Assembly: GCA_030679975.1 (NCBI GenBank)
Contig: JAUXSL010000124.1
Location: 1-34,974, forward strand
Length of the DNA stretch: 34,974 bases
DNA from: Actinomycetota bacterium
GTDB lineage: Bacteria; Actinomycetota; Aquicultoria; CAJVYJ01; JAUVQD01
Reading direction: 5' to 3'
Shown: positions 21,466 to 34,974 of the stretch, one piece after another
How positions within the stretch are numbered: the first letter of the stretch is position 1
Layout of the letters: each line of letters opens with the position of its first letter
Translations under genes and position numbers: made by a program
Notes under the pieces: model-generated
The model's database searches: none
The model's input: the letters and a program-made list of their open reading frames with translations, nothing else
What the model was told of the DNA's origin: nothing

Positions 21466-23355
21466 TTGATTATCGGCACCGCCGGCCATATCGACCACGG
21501 CAAGACAGAGTTGGTCAAGGCTTTGACCGGCGTCGATACCGACCGCCTGGCTGAGGAAAAAAAGCGCGGGATATCGATAGACCTCGGCTTTGCCTCATTT
21601 TTTCTTCCCTCCGGTCTCGAGGCCGGCATCGTCGACGTTCCCGGCCACGAGCGGTTCATCAAGAACATGTTGGCCGGCTCCACGGGCATCGATTTAATGC
21701 TGTTGGTGGTCGCCGCCGCCGACGGCGTCATGGCCCAGACTATCGAACATCTGGCCATAGCCGAGCTCCTTGGCGTGGGCGCTGCCGTGGTCGCCGTCAC
21801 CAAAGCGGACTTAGCCGGCGCTGAGCGTCTGGACGAGGTCGAGGAGCAAGTGAGGGAATTGCTCGAATCAGGTTCATTTAAGGACGCGCCTATCGTCAGA
21901 GTTTCAGCCAAGCGCCGTCTTGGTCTCGAAGAGCTGGTCGCGGCCATTGAAACCCAAGCCGGTCTACGGACAGAGCGATTGCTCGATCTTCCGCCGCGAT
22001 TGCCCATCGACAGATCGTTTATCCTAGCCGGGGCAGGCCGGGTGGTGACCGGGACTCTTTGGTCGGGCGTGCTCGCGGCCACGGGTTTGCTGGAGCTGCT
22101 GCCAACAGGGGAAACCTGCCGGCCGCGCCGCATCGAAGTCCACGGCAACCCCGTCACCAAGGGCTTAGCGGGCCAGCGGGTGGCGGTGAACATAGTCGTT
22201 TCCGGACCGCCGCCACGGCGCGGAGATTGGCTCGTGCCCCCTGCCACCTTTAGTCTCACATCCGAACTGCTGGCTCGTGTGACGGTTGTCCCGCAGGCGC
22301 CCAGAGCTTTAAAGCGCCGCGCTCGCCTGCGCCTTTATCACGGCACCCGAGAAGTCGCCGCCGTTTTAAGTCCGATAGGCGAGGCCCAGATAGAGCCCGG
22401 CCGACAGGGGTATGCCCGCCTCGTCTTAGCGGAGCCGATAGTCGCTGTCTTCCGGGACAGGTTTATCTTGCGCTCTCTCTCGCCCATGGCCACGGTCGCC
22501 GGCGGGATCATTCTGGAGAACCGGACAAAAGGCCGAGGGGGCCAAGTCGATATAGACCATCTTGCCGCTCTGGCCGGCGATGACCGGTCGGCGGTAAGGG
22601 AGTTTTTTCAAGGGCGGCGTCTGCCGTTGACAGGCGATGAGGTGGCCGACGCGGTCCAGCTCGGCAGCCGGGCGACGGAAAAAGCCGTTGCCGAACTGGT
22701 TGGAGAAAATGCGATAACGCCGTTCAATGTCAGGCAGCGCGTCTACTATTTGGCTACCGAAGCGATCGCCGGCTGCGCCCGCGACCTCGATGCGCTGCTG
22801 GCGGGTTTTCACGCTGAACAACCCTACCGGTTCGGCATCGAAAAAGAGGCGGCCCAAAGGCGGCTGTGGCCCGAGCTCTCTCCTTCCCAGGCCGACATCC
22901 TGTTCGACTATTTCATATCGATGGGGTCGATAGTCCGCCGGGACGGGCGCCTGGCTGCGGCAGACCGGGTGCTTGACGCCATGGCTGTAAAGTTGGAGCA
23001 GATCGGACAGGAACTTCAGGGATTTTCTCCCCCCGACCTAAGAAAACTCGGTGAGGATACGGGCATCGCCGCCGCCGACCTCAAAGCTTTGCTCGGTCAG
23101 CTTCGGTCCGACGGGTCAGTCGTAGCCGCGGGCGGCGACCAATATTTTACCCGGGGCGCCGTTGATGAGGCGACCGGCAGATTGCTGGAGTTCTTGGCCG
23201 AAGCCGGCGAGATAACCGTCAGTCAGTTTAAAGACCTGCTCGGCACGACCAGAAAATACGCTGTCCTCCTGCTTGAATATTTCGACCGGCAGAAAGTGAC
23301 CAGGCGCGTTGGCGATGTACGGGTGGTCTATGATGCGCGGGTGGAAGAGCTATAG
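21466..23355 (+). CDS. selB: Selenocysteine-specific elongation factor SelB
   Basis: The 629-aa protein starts at TTG 21466. Its GTPase domain carries TAGHIDHGKTELVKAL (G1), RGISIDLGF (G2), DVPGHERFIKNMLAG (G3) and VTKADL (G4). Two beta-barrel domains of the EF-Tu type follow, then a long C-terminal part with four winged-helix modules that bind the SECIS hairpin (the last near GEITVSQFKDLLGTTRKYAVLLLEYFDR). It delivers Sec-tRNA-Sec to UGA codons. Alternative upstream starts are not better supported. The tRNA-Sec gene lies 0.9 kb downstream, separated by the PIN/Phd genes. Confidence 0.96.
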   Translation: MIIGTAGHIDHGKTELVKALTGVDTDRLAEEKKRGISIDLGFASFFLPSGLEAGIVDVPGHERFIKNMLAGSTGIDLMLLVVAAADGVMAQTIEHLAIAELLGVGAAVVAVTKADLAGAERLDEVEEQVRELLESGSFKDAPIVRVSAKRRLGLEELVAAIETQAGLRTERLLDLPPRLPIDRSFILAGAGRVVTGTLWSGVLAATGLLELLPTGETCRPRRIEVHGNPVTKGLAGQRVAVNIVVSGPPPRRGDWLVPPATFSLTSELLARVTVVPQAPRALKRRARLRLYHGTREVAAVLSPIGEAQIEPGRQGYARLVLAEPIVAVFRDRFILRSLSPMATVAGGIILENRTKGRGGQVDIDHLAALAGDDRSAVREFFQGRRLPLTGDEVADAVQLGSRATEKAVAELVGENAITPFNVRQRVYYLATEAIAGCARDLDALLAGFHAEQPYRFGIEKEAAQRRLWPELSPSQADILFDYFISMGSIVRRDGRLAAADRVLDAMAVKLEQIGQELQGFSPPDLRKLGEDTGIAAADLKALLGQLRSDGSVVAAGGDQYFTRGAVDEATGRLLEFLAEAGEITVSQFKDLLGTTRKYAVLLLEYFDRQKVTRRVGDVRVVYDARVEEL

Positions 23356-24214: not shown

Positions 24215-24305
24215 CGGAAGCGCCCAGGGATCGAACCTAGCCGAGAGGTCACCCTCTCACACTGGTGTTGAAGACCAGGCGGCCCACCAGGACCGAAGCG
24301 CCTCC
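24215..24305 (-). tRNA. selC: tRNA-Sec (anticodon UCA)
   Basis: The minus strand folds into an unusual tRNA. The acceptor stem has 8 bp (GGAGGCGC with GCGCTTCC, one G-U). The D stem has 6 bp (CGGTCC/GGGCCG) with a 4-nt loop. The anticodon stem is CTGGT/ACCAG with loop CTTCAAC holding TCA (24271-24269). The long variable arm is GAGAGG-GTGA-CCTCTC, and the T-arm loop is TTCGATC. The 8-bp acceptor, 6-bp D stem and long variable arm are specific to selenocysteine tRNA. The discriminator is G and CCA is not encoded. TATCAT about 20 bp upstream on the minus strand may be its -10 box. Confidence 0.96.
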
Positions 24306-29572: not shown

Positions 29573-31141
29573 GTGGCGGGCATAAGTGGGCACATCGTGG
29601 GATGGTTTCAGAGAAGTCTTGATAAACAAATACGTCTCTTCTATCTGCCGCTCATCACGGGGGTCTCGGTTGCCTTTGCTTTGATGGCTGATTTGCCGAC
29701 TTTCAATAAATCCGGCGTGGTCTTAATCCTCCTCTTGACGGCCATCGTCCACTGGGACTTACGTGACGGAGGCGTCCTTTCCCGTTGGCTATACAGTCAC
29801 GGCGCCGGCTACGATATGCGGAGCTACATCACTGTCAGTGTCGCTTTTGGTTTAGTTACCTTAATCTTGGGCTTTGCTAACGCTTTCTACACCCCTCTGA
29901 TCATGCTTTATTATATCCCGATCGTGCTCTGCGCCATGCGGGGCGGTTATCGGATGACGCTACTCTTTGTCGGCATCCTCGCCGCTTCGACCTCAGCTTA
30001 TTACCAGGTCGGCTATCAAGTCTACGGGCGGGTTTACAAGGAAGGTAATTTGTACTTGTTGCTTTTCCTTGGTCTCGCGCTGGCATCCGGTTTTATCGCC
30101 GACCGCCTGAGAAGGGCGGCGGTCGACTTAAGCGCCTTGTATGAGACCGGCCGGGCGCTCAACTCCACCCTCAATGTTTCCGAGATCTACGCCCTCGCGT
30201 TGAACATCATCTCGATGGACCTGGCGCCCGATGTTTCGGCGCTCTTCATGATAGACAGCCAAAAACATCTGCAGTTACAGGCCCATCGGGGTCTCGATGA
30301 CAGCAGGGTCAAAGAGCTCAGTATTGAGATAGGCCGCGGCCTGATTGGCAAGGTCGCTGAAACGCGCACGCCGATGTCTATCTCCGAAACGAACCGCAAA
30401 TGGCAGCTTAGCTTTGCCCCTGACATAATTTCAGTGATGGCGGTGCCGGTCCGCGTCGGCGAAAAACTGCTCGGAGTGATGATGGTCGGCAAGCGGATGG
30501 CGCATGCTTACGGCTACGAGAATTTGAGGTTCCTGGAGGCGCTCGGCAGCCAGGCTGCCATCTCGATTCAAAACGCCTGGCTTTATCGCCAGACAAAAGA
30601 GTGGGCCTCACTTGACGCCTTGACCGGTATTTACAACTATCGCTACTTCTCCGAGCGCCTTGACAGCGAATGGAGCCGGGCGCTCCGGTACGAGAAACCG
30701 CTCTCATTTATCATGATCGACGTCGACTTGTTCAAGCAGGTAAATGACAATTACGGTCATCTTTGCGGCGACGAGGTCCTGCGGGAGATCGCCCATATGT
30801 TAAAGAAGCATACTCGTGACACGGATATTGTCGCGCGCTACGGCGGCGAGGAATTTGTCATTATCCTGCCGGAAACACATTATCAAGACGCTTATGTCGC
30901 CGGGGAAAAATTGCGCCGGTCGATTTATGAAGCCACGTTTACCGGCGGCAACAACAATCAAAAGATAAAATTGACGATCAGCTTAGGGATAGCCAACTAT
31001 CCGAGCACCGCCTTCAGTAAATCCGATCTTATCTACCAAGCCGACCAGGCCCTCTACCAAGCCAAGATTCAACGCAATACGCTGGCCAGCCCGCTCGATA
31101 CTAGCTGCCAGATTAACCTGAACCCTTCCGAAATCAGCTAA
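29573..31141 (+). CDS. Membrane GAF-GGDEF diguanylate cyclase
   Basis: The 522-aa protein has an N-terminal membrane module with about six hydrophobic segments (residues about 20-185). A GAF sensor domain (about 190-340, YALALNIISMDLAPDVSALFMI) is followed by a GGDEF domain starting ASLDALTGIYNYRYF. The active site reads GGEEF (424-428). An allosteric I-site RxxD (RDTD) sits five residues before it, so product inhibition by cyclic di-GMP is expected. It makes cyclic di-GMP in response to a membrane or small-molecule signal. The start is GTG 29573; GTG 29597 is possible. It is not part of an evident operon. Confidence 0.9.
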   Translation: MAGISGHIVGWFQRSLDKQIRLFYLPLITGVSVAFALMADLPTFNKSGVVLILLLTAIVHWDLRDGGVLSRWLYSHGAGYDMRSYITVSVAFGLVTLILGFANAFYTPLIMLYYIPIVLCAMRGGYRMTLLFVGILAASTSAYYQVGYQVYGRVYKEGNLYLLLFLGLALASGFIADRLRRAAVDLSALYETGRALNSTLNVSEIYALALNIISMDLAPDVSALFMIDSQKHLQLQAHRGLDDSRVKELSIEIGRGLIGKVAETRTPMSISETNRKWQLSFAPDIISVMAVPVRVGEKLLGVMMVGKRMAHAYGYENLRFLEALGSQAAISIQNAWLYRQTKEWASLDALTGIYNYRYFSERLDSEWSRALRYEKPLSFIMIDVDLFKQVNDNYGHLCGDEVLREIAHMLKKHTRDTDIVARYGGEEFVIILPETHYQDAYVAGEKLRRSIYEATFTGGNNNQKIKLTISLGIANYPSTAFSKSDLIYQADQALYQAKIQRNTLASPLDTSCQINLNPSEIS

Positions 31142-31263
31142 AAAACGCGGCCTAAAAGGCATCTGCCGCGTTATCCTCGACCTCGCCTCAGTCACGTACT
31201 TGATGTACGCTCCTTCGCTTCGCCCTTCGTCTGCCTTGCATCTGCACTTTTAGGCCGCGTTTT
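31142..31263. repeat. Dispersed intergenic repeat with perfect inverted ends, copy B
   Basis: The 17-bp ends AAAACGCGGCCTAAAAG (31142-31158) and CTTTTAGGCCGCGTTTT (31247-31263) are exact inverted repeats. The interior shares GTCACGTA, TACGCTCC, TTCGTC and CCTTGCATC in order with copy A (5316-5477). CGCGGCCGAAA (31270-31280), the left-end sequence of copy A, also occurs just outside the right end. The repeat begins right after the GGDEF stop codon and may serve as its terminator. Confidence 0.75.
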
Positions 31264-31331
31264 GGACATCGCGGCCGAAAGCCTCGTCGCTTGATTATTA
31301 AACAATTATCGGCTTGAAAATAATTCTGCGT

Positions 31332-31360
31332 CATTATTATGCTGCTTCCGCATAATAATG
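31332..31360. repeat. Perfect 11-bp inverted repeat (AT-rich hairpin)
   Basis: CATTATTATGC and GCATAATAATG are exact inverted repeats around TGCTTCC. There is no T-run. It could be a protein-binding site or the remains of an element at the edge of the cassette array. Confidence 0.7.
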
Positions 31361-31479
31361 ATTATTTGAACATTATCAGCGCTCAAAGAGCTCAACTCGA
31401 GTTGGCCCCATTTCCATTGCCCATTTGGCGCCTGATTGCCTAAAATGCGATAAAACATAGAAGAAAGATAAAAGACACT

Positions 31480-31486
31480 GTTGTGT
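31480..31486 (+). other. Left recombination junction of the hicAB cassette (G/TTGTGT)
   Basis: GTTGTGT fits the integron core site GTTRRRY except one position and is the exact reverse complement of the 1L box (ACACAAC, 32033-32039) of the attC at the right end of the same cassette. In a free circular cassette these two boxes would form one paired attC end, so the cassette runs from 31481 to 32107. No folded attC lies upstream, so the site on the left is either an attI or a secondary insertion site. Confidence 0.75.
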
Positions 31487-31500
31487 CCAATAACTAAGAA

Positions 31501-31529
31501 TTAGCACTTTACGCTCAGTTGGCTATAAT
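31501..31529 (+). promoter_or_regulatory. hicA promoter inside the cassette
   Basis: TTAGCA (31501-31506) and a perfect TATAAT (31524-31529) are spaced by 17 bp. The start of transcription would be near 31536, about 36 nt before the hicA ATG. The cassette therefore does not depend on an external integron promoter. Confidence 0.55.
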
Positions 31530-31571
31530 CATCATAAGGCTGGTTTTTGCTCAAAATCCTGGGTTTGGGAT

Positions 31572-31760
31572 ATGAAAATACGTGATGTGATTAAATTGAT
31601 CGAATCAGACGGCTGGTTTCTGGTTGCGACCAAAGGAAGTCACCAGCAATATAAACACCCGGTAAAACCTGGAAGAGTTACGATTGCAGGCCAACCGGGT
31701 CATGATCTGGCACCCGGCACCCTAAACAGCGTGTTAAAGCAAGCACAAATCAAGAGGTGA
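31572..31760 (+). CDS. hicA: HicA toxin (mRNA interferase)
   Basis: This 62-aa protein has the HicA double-stranded-RNA-binding-like fold: IKLIESDGWFLVATKGSHQQYKHPVKPGRVTIAGQPGHDLAPGTLNSVLKQA. The catalytic His is in GSHQQY. It cleaves mRNA and is neutralised by HicB, encoded immediately downstream. Its stop lies 5 bp before the HicB ATG. Base composition is AT-richer than the chromosomal genes to the left, in line with arrival on an integron cassette. TA genes are common cargo there because they stabilise the array. Confidence 0.95.
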   Translation: MKIRDVIKLIESDGWFLVATKGSHQQYKHPVKPGRVTIAGQPGHDLAPGTLNSVLKQAQIKR

Positions 31761-31765
31761 GTTCC

Positions 31766-31984
31766 ATGTATCGGTTTCTAGTGGTAATCGAAAAGACAAA
31801 CAATAATTACTCCGCCTACTCTCCTGATCTGCCTGGCTGTGTTGCGGCAGGCGACACCGTTGAAGACGTTGAGCGCAATATCCACGAGGCAATTGCAATG
31901 CATGTGAGTGGACTTAAAGAAGATAACGAGCCAATTCCTGTCTCTCACGCTATTGCCGAGTATGTTGCTGTCGATTCTGCTTGA
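31766..31984 (+). CDS. hicB: HicB antitoxin
   Basis: ATG 31766 is preferred because AGAGGTGAG lies just upstream; the ORF-track GTG 31757 overlaps the hicA stop and is an alternative. The roughly 72-aa protein has the degenerate RNase H-like HicB fold: YRFLVVIEKTNNNYSAYSPDLPGCVAAGDTVEDVERNIHEAIAMHVSGLKEDNEPIP. It ends without an added HTH or RHH domain, so it is a short HicB. It neutralises HicA, and the pair fills the first cassette. Confidence 0.93.
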   Translation: MYRFLVVIEKTNNNYSAYSPDLPGCVAAGDTVEDVERNIHEAIAMHVSGLKEDNEPIPVSHAIAEYVAVDSA

Positions 31985-32032
31985 AGGCTAATCCAACGCT
32001 GTTGGCGACGGCGACCGAAAAATAAAGGCCTG

Positions 32033-32113
32033 ACACAACAAGTCGTTCCAGCGGACATTTCAACGCGGCAAAAGCGGCCCCGTTAAAACGCCGCTGAACA
32101 TTAAGCGTTGGGC
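32033..32113 (+). repeat. attC recombination site 1
   Basis: The boxes in order are 1L ACACAAC (32033-32039), 2L GTTCCAGCGG (32045-32054), 2R CCGCTGAAC (32091-32099) and 1R GTTGGGC (32107-32113). 2L and 2R are complementary except for one extra C in 2L, the extrahelical base that orients integrase on the folded bottom strand. The 5-nt and 7-nt gaps are normal. Recombination would occur between G32107 and T32108. Confidence 0.92.
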
Positions 32114-32389
32114 GACAAAATTAAAAGTTGGAAAACCGACGGCAAAAGCGACCGATCAGTTACTGGCTGCGGTCGCTAAGAAATGAGAGCAGTAAGTGCT
32201 CGGTTGCCTGCAAAAAAGCATCAATTGTTCACTATTGATTAAAGGCTTGGTTACCGGATTATCGTTGAGCCAGTGGCGTGGTTTCCGGCGAGCTCCCTAC
32301 CCTCGAACCTTGCTTCTTCAAGCCGGCGCTGTAGAATGAAAGCTTAGCTAAGAGAGACAAGGGGTTGGCGCTTCAAACCTAGAGTGAGC

Positions 32390-32419
32390 TTGATTGGCTG
32401 AATAAAAGACTGTGATAAT
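32390..32419 (+). promoter_or_regulatory. Promoter of the TPR-protein module
   Basis: TTGATT-N18-GATAAT with a TG two bases before the -10 box. Transcription would start near 32426, leaving a leader of about 60 nt before the first ATG. Confidence 0.45.
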
Positions 32420-32486
32420 GGTAGGGTGTGGGCCTGCCGACCACAGAAAGAGACGCTTATAAGGGAACAAGGACCTGATTGGAACC

Positions 32487-33011
32487 ATGAAAACATCACC
32501 GCATGGCTCTGTGTCAATGGATGTGTTAAGTCTATATTCGATCAATACTTGGTTGGCTTATGTGATAAATATGAAGTACTTCAGTGACCTGCATTACGTT
32601 TGGTGCGCCCCTTTTTTTACCGGCAACGCTAGAGCGCCCATAGACCTAACAAATCCTGCGTCGTCAATTCCAAGTCAGCGTTATTGGCGATTAGTTGAGG
32701 ATATCAAGAAAGGTGATCGTCACAGCGTACTAATCAAAGAAAATATTTTCGGGATAAAAAACGGTATTCTCGCAAAGGAGAAAGCCAAAATAATTACCCG
32801 GACACAAGGTGATGAAATTCGAAGTATTATACAAGAAGCACAAGTTTCAGATTTTAGACCTTTAATATATATCATTCCATTTACCAAGGCTGTAAGGGAA
32901 TTATGCATTCAACCTCATGTAAAAGAACGGGCGCATCCCTTGGCTGAAGAGTTCGTAATAAAAGAACTTCCGCGGTCAATGTTTGATATAATCGAGCTGG
33001 ATCATGTTTGA
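32487..33011 (+). CDS. Unrecognised 174-aa cassette protein (module partner 1)
   Basis: I do not recognise this family. Visible features: an aromatic-rich start (LYSINTWLAYVINMKYFSDLHYVWCAPFF), a Pro/Ser-rich segment (NPASSIPSQRYWRLVEDI), a His- and Asn-containing helix region (GDRHSVLIKENIFGIKNG), then RPLIYIIPF and a C-terminal HPLAEEFVIKELPRSMFDIIEL. No signal peptide or membrane helix is seen, so it is cytosolic. Conserved-looking Tyr, His, Trp and Glu residues could form an enzyme active site, but no known motif is present. The start is uncertain (weak ribosome binding site; GTG 32511 or ATG 32517 are alternatives). It overlaps the TPR gene by 8 bp, so the products are made together. Confidence 0.75.
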   Translation: MKTSPHGSVSMDVLSLYSINTWLAYVINMKYFSDLHYVWCAPFFTGNARAPIDLTNPASSIPSQRYWRLVEDIKKGDRHSVLIKENIFGIKNGILAKEKAKIITRTQGDEIRSIIQEAQVSDFRPLIYIIPFTKAVRELCIQPHVKERAHPLAEEFVIKELPRSMFDIIELDHV

Positions 33012-33999
33012 ACTCCTTAAGGAAAAATCACTAGAAAAAACAGTTGGGTTTGCGTACCAGTTATCTCGCATTCTGTTGGAGCGAGATTTTCGTGAAGCAA
33101 GCGAAATAGGGCCTTGGCTGATTGGCCTTGATGCGGATGAAAAAAGTGAAGTTAAAGAATTTCTTAGCGAGATAGAAAAGAGAGAAAATCTTACTATTGC
33201 TAATTTGAGCGAGTCAAGGGTGCAGGAGCTGGTTGATGAACTTGCTAAGCTGGTTAAGGATCAAGAGCTACATGAAGTACGCCTAAACAATCACACAGGC
33301 AAAGACTTGCTGGGGGAGCTTCATTCTCGACACAGCCAGTTGACATCTAGTTTGGAAACTGAAGCAGATCGTTTATGCAATGAGGGCGACCTAGTGGGAT
33401 CGGCAGAGCTATACCTTAAAATATTAGGTTTTGTTGCCTTGCCCCAAAATGATTCGAATCAAGTACGACTAAACCTAAAGTGCGGGCGAGTGTTTCATGA
33501 ACTTGGTCAATATAACAAAGCGCTAGATTTCCTTGTAAATGCATACAAGGGCACCGACGAAATTGCAGAGAAAATCGAACCGCTGGGTCTCATAATGTTA
33601 TTACACCTAGACGCCAAGCAACAGCGCCGAGGGCAAGAATCTCTTGAAAAATTAATCAGGTTCACAAACTGGGCTCATAATGAGGATATTGCAAAAGGTC
33701 AGGGCTTTCACTTTATTGGGAGATTCCATTCGCGGCTCGGAAATAATGAGGAAGCATTCCGCTTTTATAGCAGAGCCTATGAGGTTTTTGAAAATCATTC
33801 GTTTGATTTTGGCATCGCTTCGGTAAGCAATAATCTCGGCATACAATATTTTAAGCAAAAAGATTACGATAGTGCCTTAACTTGTTTCGACCGAGCTCTT
33901 AATATATTTAAGCGACTTGATATCAAGAAAGATGAAATGGCAGTGCAAGCAAACATCGAGACACTGCTCCAAGCGCGACAAGCACAGATAGAACCTTAA
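33004..33999 (+). CDS. TPR-repeat cassette protein (module partner 2)
   Basis: This 331-aa helical protein has an N-terminal domain of about 120 residues rich in Glu and Lys, probably coiled coil, followed by several tetratricopeptide repeats. Examples are SAELYLKILGF..LKCGRVFHELGQYNKALDFL, GFHFIGRFHSRLGNNEEAFRFYSRAYEVF and NNLGIQYFKQKDYDSALTCFDRALNIF, which match the TPR pattern of alternating W/LG-Y-A-A/F residues. TPRs bind partner proteins or peptides. Its ATG lies inside the last codons of the upstream gene (ATGTTTGA). It is the last gene before attC site 2. Function is unknown; a sensor or scaffold for partner 1 is the simplest guess. Confidence 0.85.
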   Translation: MFELLKEKSLEKTVGFAYQLSRILLERDFREASEIGPWLIGLDADEKSEVKEFLSEIEKRENLTIANLSESRVQELVDELAKLVKDQELHEVRLNNHTGKDLLGELHSRHSQLTSSLETEADRLCNEGDLVGSAELYLKILGFVALPQNDSNQVRLNLKCGRVFHELGQYNKALDFLVNAYKGTDEIAEKIEPLGLIMLLHLDAKQQRRGQESLEKLIRFTNWAHNEDIAKGQGFHFIGRFHSRLGNNEEAFRFYSRAYEVFENHSFDFGIASVSNNLGIQYFKQKDYDSALTCFDRALNIFKRLDIKKDEMAVQANIETLLQARQAQIEP

Positions 34000-34107
34000 C
34001 TGATTCTTTTGAACAAGAAAGACAAGGGTGGCCGTTCAACCCTACAGCTTAGCCCAAACGTTCCCCCCCTCGTTCGCTTCAGTTAAGATTTGTAAAACAA
34101 AGGACGC

Positions 34108-34190
34108 GCCCAACAAATCGTTCCAGCGGATGTTTACCTGCGTCATTTGGTCGCTCCGCAGCTAAACGCCGCTGAATTCAAGCGTTAGCC
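34108..34190 (+). repeat. attC recombination site 2
   Basis: The boxes are 1L GCCCAAC (34108-34114), 2L GTTCCAGCGG (34120-34129), 2R CCGCTGAAT (34169-34177) and 1R GTTAGCC (34184-34190). The inner part folds further: GTTTACCTGCG pairs with CGCAGCTAAAC with one mismatch. The 1L box is the exact reverse complement of GTTGGGC, the left edge of the same cassette, fixing its limits at 32108-34184. The 13-bp string TCGTTCCAGCGGA is identical in site 1. Confidence 0.92.
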
Positions 34191-34226
34191 CACAAGAGAA
34201 ATAATCCGCTGTTGCTTGTTTAGGCA

Positions 34227-34265
34227 TTGAAATACACGAAACATATACGTATACTACACGTATAC
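34227..34265 (+). promoter_or_regulatory. Promoter and operator of the RHH/MazF-like pair
   Basis: TTGAAA (34227-34232) and TATACT (34250-34255) are 17 bp apart. ACGTATAC occurs twice (34247-34254 and 34258-34265) with an 11-bp period, about one helical turn, overlapping the -10 box; this is a likely binding site for the antitoxin. GGAGG at 34270-34274 precedes the ATG at 34281. Confidence 0.65.
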
Positions 34266-34280
34266 GGAATGGAGGTTTTA

Positions 34281-34511
34281 ATGCAAAAGAAGCTGACCAT
34301 AACATTAGACGAGGAAGTTTATGTGGGCCTTCGCAAGACCATCGGCCCGCGCAAAATCAGCAAATTTGTCGAGGAATTGGTTCGCCCGCACGTAGTGCGC
34401 CCGAATTTAGAATTAGCATACTCTCAAATGTCACAAGATAAAAAGAGAGAGGCAGAAGCCTTGGATTGGGCAGAGATGACTTTCAGGGACATGGCTCGTG
34501 AAAAAAGGTGA
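34281..34511 (+). CDS. Ribbon-helix-helix-type antitoxin (MazE-like)
   Basis: ATG 34281 is chosen because a strong GGAGG ends 6 nt before it; the ORF-track start lies in the -35 box. The 76-aa protein begins [36 protein letters not shown], a typical ribbon-helix-helix DNA-binding fold. An acidic C-terminus ([20 protein letters not shown]) follows that would bind the toxin. Its last 14 bp overlap the toxin gene. It probably represses the pair by binding the ACGTATAC repeats. Confidence 0.88.
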
Positions 34512-34821
34512 GGTTTGGTGGGTTAACTTCGACCCCTCGGTTGGCGGAGAAATTAGAAAGAAACGCCCTGCTGTAATTGTTAGCAATGATGCATCGAACA
34601 AGTTTCTCAATCGCGTCCAGGTTGTTCCTTTAACAAGCAAGACAGATCGTCTTTATCCCAGCGAGGCGCTGGTTGTGTTAGATGGCAAAGAAAGTAAGGC
34701 GATGGCCGATCAGCTAGCTACTGTGAGCAAGTTGCGACTGTTTAAATTTGCCGGCGTCCTCTCGGAAGAAGATATACTCAAAATTAGTGAAACTATCAAA
34801 ATACAATTAGATATTTTCTGA
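34498..34821 (+). CDS. MazF/PemK-family toxin (mRNA interferase)
   Basis: This 107-aa protein has the CcdB/PemK-like barrel signature: [33 protein letters not shown], then [10 protein letters not shown] and a C-terminal [22 protein letters not shown]. The N-terminal G-x-V/I-W-x-V-x-F-x-P and the R-P-x-x-V-I/V-S motifs are the hallmarks of MazF endoribonucleases. GTG 34498 overlaps the antitoxin end, giving translational coupling. It lies directly before attC site 3 and completes the third cassette. Confidence 0.93.
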
Positions 34822-34827
34822 AAACCG

Positions 34828-34899
34828 GGCTAACAAGGCGTTCCACCCGACCGCTACCCGGCCGGTCAAAGTAGCGGCAGGTGAACGCAGGCGTCATGT
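34828..34899 (+). repeat. attC recombination site 3
   Basis: The boxes are 1L GGCTAAC (34828-34834), 2L GTTCCACC (34840-34847), 2R GGTGAAC (34880-34886) and 1R GTCATGT (34893-34899). The inner stem CCGCTAC/GTAGCGG is perfect, and 2L again has one extra C relative to 2R. 1L is the exact reverse complement of GTTAGCC, the left edge of this cassette (cassette 34185-34893). The 1R box departs from GTTRRRY at two positions. Confidence 0.85.
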
Positions 34900-34955: not shown

Positions 34956-34974
34956 ATGGAATTAGTAAAAGTTT
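34956..34974 (+). CDS. Start of a gene in the fourth cassette (5' fragment)
   Basis: ATG 34956 follows GGAGG by 7 nt and a good promoter. Only MELVKV is visible before the window ends. AbrB-type antitoxins often begin this way, but six residues do not allow assignment. Confidence 0.5.

Follow-up and report, generated by a model that had tools for sequence, protein, structure and literature searches.

An integrase-less cassette array headed by an attI-type site with a predicted promoter, one of several dispersed copies in an Actinomycetota genome

The textbook integron has a single attI beside its integrase, and arrays lacking an integrase are usually taken as debris. The window, which is the whole 34,974-nucleotide stretch analysed here and the entire contig C29 (ending at 34974) of genome G000 (1.76 Mb, 127 contigs), carries an integrase-less array and raises the question of what kind of site heads it. 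An initial annotation had proposed a cluster of attC sites lacking integrase (a CALIN), a cassette inserted at a secondary site, or an integron whose intI was deleted or lies beyond the right edge. The reading favoured here is that 31299-31480 is very probably an attI carrying a cassette promoter (Pc) of its own, that it belongs to a family of at least five dispersed members, and that IntI would insert cassettes into it in trans. The features of the locus are as follows.

29573-31141, plus strand: GAF-GGDEF diguanylate cyclase gene, the left flank, with its stop at 31141
31142-31263, no strand assigned: repeat of ~120 bp, dispersed in the genome and bounded by 17-bp terminal inverted repeats; independent of the attI element
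31299-31480, plus strand: attI-Pc element, common with contig C34 from ~31299 and with contig C1 from ~31319, up to the crossover
31331-31361, plus strand: AT-rich hairpin inside the element, with 12-bp arms TCATTATTATGC/GCATAATAATGA and a 7-nt loop
31417-31446, plus strand: predicted cassette promoter Pc (sigma70-type, by consensus), TTGCCC-18-TAAAAT, its -10 ending 34 nt before the crossover
31457-31482, plus strand: attI core ATAGAAGAAAGATAAAAGACACTG/TT, crossover between 31480 and 31481
31481-32107, plus strand: cassette 1, starting TTGTGT, with hicA (31572-31760) and hicB (31766-31984)
32032-32113, plus strand: attC of cassette 1 (attC model)
32108-34184, plus strand: cassette 2, with two ORFs, of which the second encodes a TPR protein
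34107-34190, plus strand: attC of cassette 2 (attC model)
34185-34893, plus strand: cassette 3, a small ORF and a PemK/MazF-like toxin
34827-34899, plus strand: attC of cassette 3, R' GTCATGT here and GTTGGTA on contig C25
34894-34974, plus strand: beginning of another cassette, truncated where the contig ends

The left end of the array was described initially as lacking both integrase and attC, and this is borne out. An attC covariance model built from the sites of nine arrays found no attC between the GGDEF stop (31141) and 31480, a profile search detected no integron integrase on the contig, and tblastn returned no intI relic in the window. The hicAB cassette does start at G/TTGTGT: the R'' of its attC at 32032 (GACACAAC) is perfectly complementary to GTTGTGTC at 31480, with the cassette start reading TTGTGTC, so the boundary first placed at 31480/31481 is correct. 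G/TT heads the array, and the first cassette complements its own R'' with 0 mismatches, as do the first cassettes on C1 and C34. With three attC in the window (at least two are required) and no neighbouring intI, the array is a CALIN by definition, as the first of the initial readings had it; no intI adjoins the attI, as it would in a complete integron. The dispersed repeat lies directly 3' of the GGDEF stop codon and has ~30 full or partial matches across the genome. Elsewhere in the window, a selenocysteine tRNA (24216-24305, minus strand) lies near a SelB-like elongation factor gene (21466-23355, plus strand).

The 340 bp before the array had been thought to hold only a repeat and a hairpin. 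Both are present, but 31299-31480 is itself a multi-copy element. Positions 31319-31480 match C1:20157-20319 with 94% identity over ~165-167 bp, and 31299-31480 match C34:66570-66982 in two pieces, with 74% and 90% identity. A ~240-bp palindromic insertion (L056:6695-6934) splits the C34 copy upstream of the -10 and probably breaks its promoter. At C29, C1 and C34 the likeness stops within a few bases of G/TT, and a different cassette follows each copy. In all, the element or its core occurs at four other places in G000 (C1, C34, C125 and C124), each followed by different cassette-like DNA; on C125 the first stretch after the attI was called a cassette by its similarity to the C34 one, not by an R'' match. 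Of these five members, C29, C1, C34 and C125 head arrays without an adjoining integrase, and C124 adjoins intI.

A search for the core ATAGAAnAAAGATAAAAnnnnnTG/TT covered 36 genomes of the class. With up to three mismatches the core occurred three times in G000, and a reversed-pattern control gave 0 occurrences; a looser core additionally found C125 in G000 and three copies in G012, a class-level relative. The G012:C12 copy occupies the canonical attI place, ~150 bp upstream of an intI that is divergently oriented; at the G012 copies on C89 and C91, intI is absent and attC follow. The C124 copy of G000 (three mismatches, at 364, minus strand) also lies ~150 bp upstream of a divergent intI, in the canonical place. 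Leave-one-out motif scores of the ten sites were 22-37 bits, with 36.8 bits for the window site, which shares its core motif with the intI-adjoining sites C124 and G012:C12; a shuffled control (614 kb, Markov) gave no motif score above 14 bits, apart from real loci. BLAST with the DNA element gave no match in family members, the diverged copies being reached by the motif scan only, and the attC loci on C49, C54 and C125:1103 have no such attI.

Several candidates were set aside. A motif-like match on G000:C89 had no attC nearby in the stretch examined and was treated as chance, G005:C126 had a good motif score with a differing promoter spacing, and the array starts of G015, alike over a dozen bases only, were left unused. 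The exact attI pattern gave only two matches in GTDB genome contigs, both in Bacteroidota and taken as chance. It was absent from the viral contigs, plasmids and phages searched, which gives no sign of the element travelling on known mobile elements.

The predicted Pc is directed into the array, and its spacing to the crossover is conserved. The 34-nt spacing recurs at C124, C1, C125, G012:C12, G005:C34 and G004:C236, the last being a seventh site added after the following count was made. The pattern TTG[AC]C-17/18-TANNNT ending exactly 34 nt before G/TT was found at 6/10 sites, against 4 in 40,000 shuffles, a descriptive figure since the count was made after the spacing had been noticed. Furthermore, GCATAATAAT, from the window hairpin, recurs 130-136 nt before the crossover at C1, C124 and G004:C236. 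It is well supported, at the level of sequence, that the stretch before the array is an attI-type site with a predicted Pc and a member of a multi-copy family. The initial term "attI-like" was apt, as same-family copies at C124 and G012:C12 occupy the canonical attI position beside intI.

An intI elsewhere in the genome, which the initial annotation had suggested looking for, was found on C124. It is the only full-length integron integrase gene detected in G000, with an attI and flanks of its own. Its frame (700-1710) scores 405 bits against the IntI profile (cut-off 265), and the core carries a phage-integrase domain and a SAM-like domain. The C124 integrase is 67% identical to that of G012:C12, compared with 47-50% for other integrases of the class, which indicates that attI motif and integrase type go together. 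The G012 integrase has an N-terminal extension of ~90 aa; on C124 the start of this extension survives in a different frame from the 336-aa core, and the segment between is missing, so present integrase activity is uncertain, and the 336-aa frame that remains may be active or inactive. The tetranucleotide usage of C124 agrees with that of C29 at 0.89, equal to pieces of C29 among themselves (relatives, 0.4-0.8), so C124 probably belongs to the G000 genome; in an assembly this fragmented its membership rests on binning and composition, and further intI may be missing. Separately, an integrase C-terminal end 91% identical to the G012 integrase lies at a contig edge on G002:C39 (L136:6321-6419); it fell outside the E-value limit set for the family search.

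Five relatives have the GGDEF gene followed directly by dnaK, which supplies the empty site that the initial annotation proposed seeking. The C1 array separates moaE from pfpI, which are neighbours in two relatives, and the C34 array separates gpsA from fmdB, which are neighbours in five relatives; these empty sites make the C29, C1 and C34 insertions lineage-specific within the set compared. On the right, contig C25 starts with 134 bases that are 98% identical to the 3' end of cassette 3 with its attC and then continues into the dnaK leader, so the array sits between GGDEF and dnaK. The window (34780-34899) and C25 (1-134; L119) show two differences, after which C29 enters another cassette; this divergence after the attC of cassette 3 points to strain variation or to a cassette present twice.

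Under the favoured reading, IntI from C124, from an ancestor or from a neighbour cell would recombine circular cassettes (attC, G/TT) into any attI copy in trans, and the local Pc would transcribe the first cassettes of each array. We infer both the action of IntI in trans on the attI copies and the activity of Pc, a promoter predicted by consensus. Mobilisation of cassettes in trans is generally assumed (PMC9668308, PMC12444791). A gene-less cassette stretch is common to C34 and C125 (97.5% identity over 118 bp), and a diverged hicAB copy occurs on C54 (83% identity). Both fit exchange between loci, as they would common array ancestry. The shared gene-less cassette is strongly palindromic (L056:7573-7738 at G000:C34; L118 at C125). 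Among other arrays of the genome, that on C1 has an IS110/IS1111-like transposase gene inside an attC (L055:7455-8670), resembling attC-targeting insertion sequences, and a four-attC array on G000:C6:141-2299 (L114) continues past the left edge of its contig, so that its head and any attI lie outside.

The element may have been dispersed by duplication of the attI-Pc unit, or by insertion of an integron that then lost its intI. The copies at C29 and C1, at 94% identity, are recent, and their likeness makes a recent duplication of the attI-Pc unit plausible for these two. The other route is part of a broader alternative, in which each array was once a complete integron that was inserted and later lost its intI, so that the attI-Pc remains and the arrays are frozen. 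We consider this a real possibility, if somewhat improbable. In its favour, degradation of integrons has been proposed as the origin of CALINs (PMC9024848), the element is conserved over roughly the length of the intI-attI intergenic region, and the C124 intI is itself partly damaged. Moreover, fragments of the intI start lie at the expected place upstream of the attI at C125 (MLNQFKAYLLEKG...) and G005:C34 (MLAAFKGYLTEKAL...), which supports the decay of complete integrons at those two loci. At C29, C1 and C34, however, tblastn finds no intI fragment, despite the recent age of the C29 and C1 copies, and three separate insertions followed by complete losses would be needed since the split from the sister genus. 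The initial suggestion that intI was deleted here may hold: fragments of the intI start are present at C125 and G005:C34, and C29 shows none.

An origin at an arbitrary genomic G/TT site (attG), where IntI placed a cassette with no involvement of attI, is very unlikely. Such attG insertions are described in work cited in PMC12444791, and the array is absent at this position in relatives. Random attG sites would have only a few bases in common, whereas the left end matches C1 over ~165 bp with 94% identity, and three further loci, including one beside intI, have its core and promoter spacing. The site at C29 belongs to a multi-copy attI family and is not a genomic site unrelated to attI, so that the secondary insertion site of the initial annotation is not supported: a site of the attG type, or one used by chance, would not have a ~165-bp element and an identical Pc spacing in common with four other arrays. 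The window array, although a CALIN by definition, has an attI at its head and is probably served in trans, as opposed to having arisen by attG insertion. Least credible is a complete integron split by assembly, with an intI belonging at the left or right end of the array and lost at contig edges: the contig does end inside the array and such splits of integrons are common (PMC9024848), but the array is joined on its left, within the contig, to a conserved chromosomal gene, the intI of C124 has its own attI and flanks, and on C25 a copy of cassette 3 leads into dnaK, the neighbour expected on the right, so the locus runs into dnaK where an intI beyond the right edge had been envisaged.

The favoured reading, an attI with its own Pc that receives cassettes in trans, can be set beside several known systems. 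Like other CALINs, the window array is a series of attC without an adjoining intI in a genome that has intI elsewhere, as in Xanthomonas, where CALINs occupy several chromosomal loci with intI elsewhere in the genome (PMC12444791); unlike them, it is headed by a recognisable attI with a predicted Pc, common to four other loci. A direct precedent is the Shewanella prophage M16-3, which carries a complete integron and a CALIN, each with its own Shewanella-type attI (PMC9892861). There too, two arrays start at one attI type and one intI is present, but the single extra copy lies inside a 40-kb prophage, whereas here at least four intI-less copies lie at scattered chromosomal loci, and the pattern is repeated in a second genome of the class. 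The canonical sedentary integron (intI-attI-Pc-array) is represented by C124 and G012:C12, which have the same attI motif; the window locus differs in having attI, Pc and array without intI. In delta-attI-type cassettes, attI remnants replace attC within a class 1 array (PMC12901181). These are likewise attI-derived sequences in non-standard places and can still recombine through IntI1, while here chromosomal arrays have entire attI-Pc units at their heads. Outside class 1 integrons, attI sites are poorly described (PMC9024848), and a limited literature search found no report of many chromosomal attI-Pc copies per genome.

The locus matters because, in two genomes belonging to one class, several integrase-less arrays have each retained a matching attI together with a promoter at a fixed distance. 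More tentatively, and on balance doubtfully, the whole may be a multi-locus integron, in which one IntI acts in trans on at least five attI-Pc platforms and the unit itself spreads to new intergenic sites, with or without cassettes; if so, cassettes would be movable between several independently expressed first positions. This set of attI sites yields a motif that can be used for a new group, and it offers a means of asking how CALINs originate. If these arrays are served in trans, the position and expression of a cassette would not be confined to one locus.
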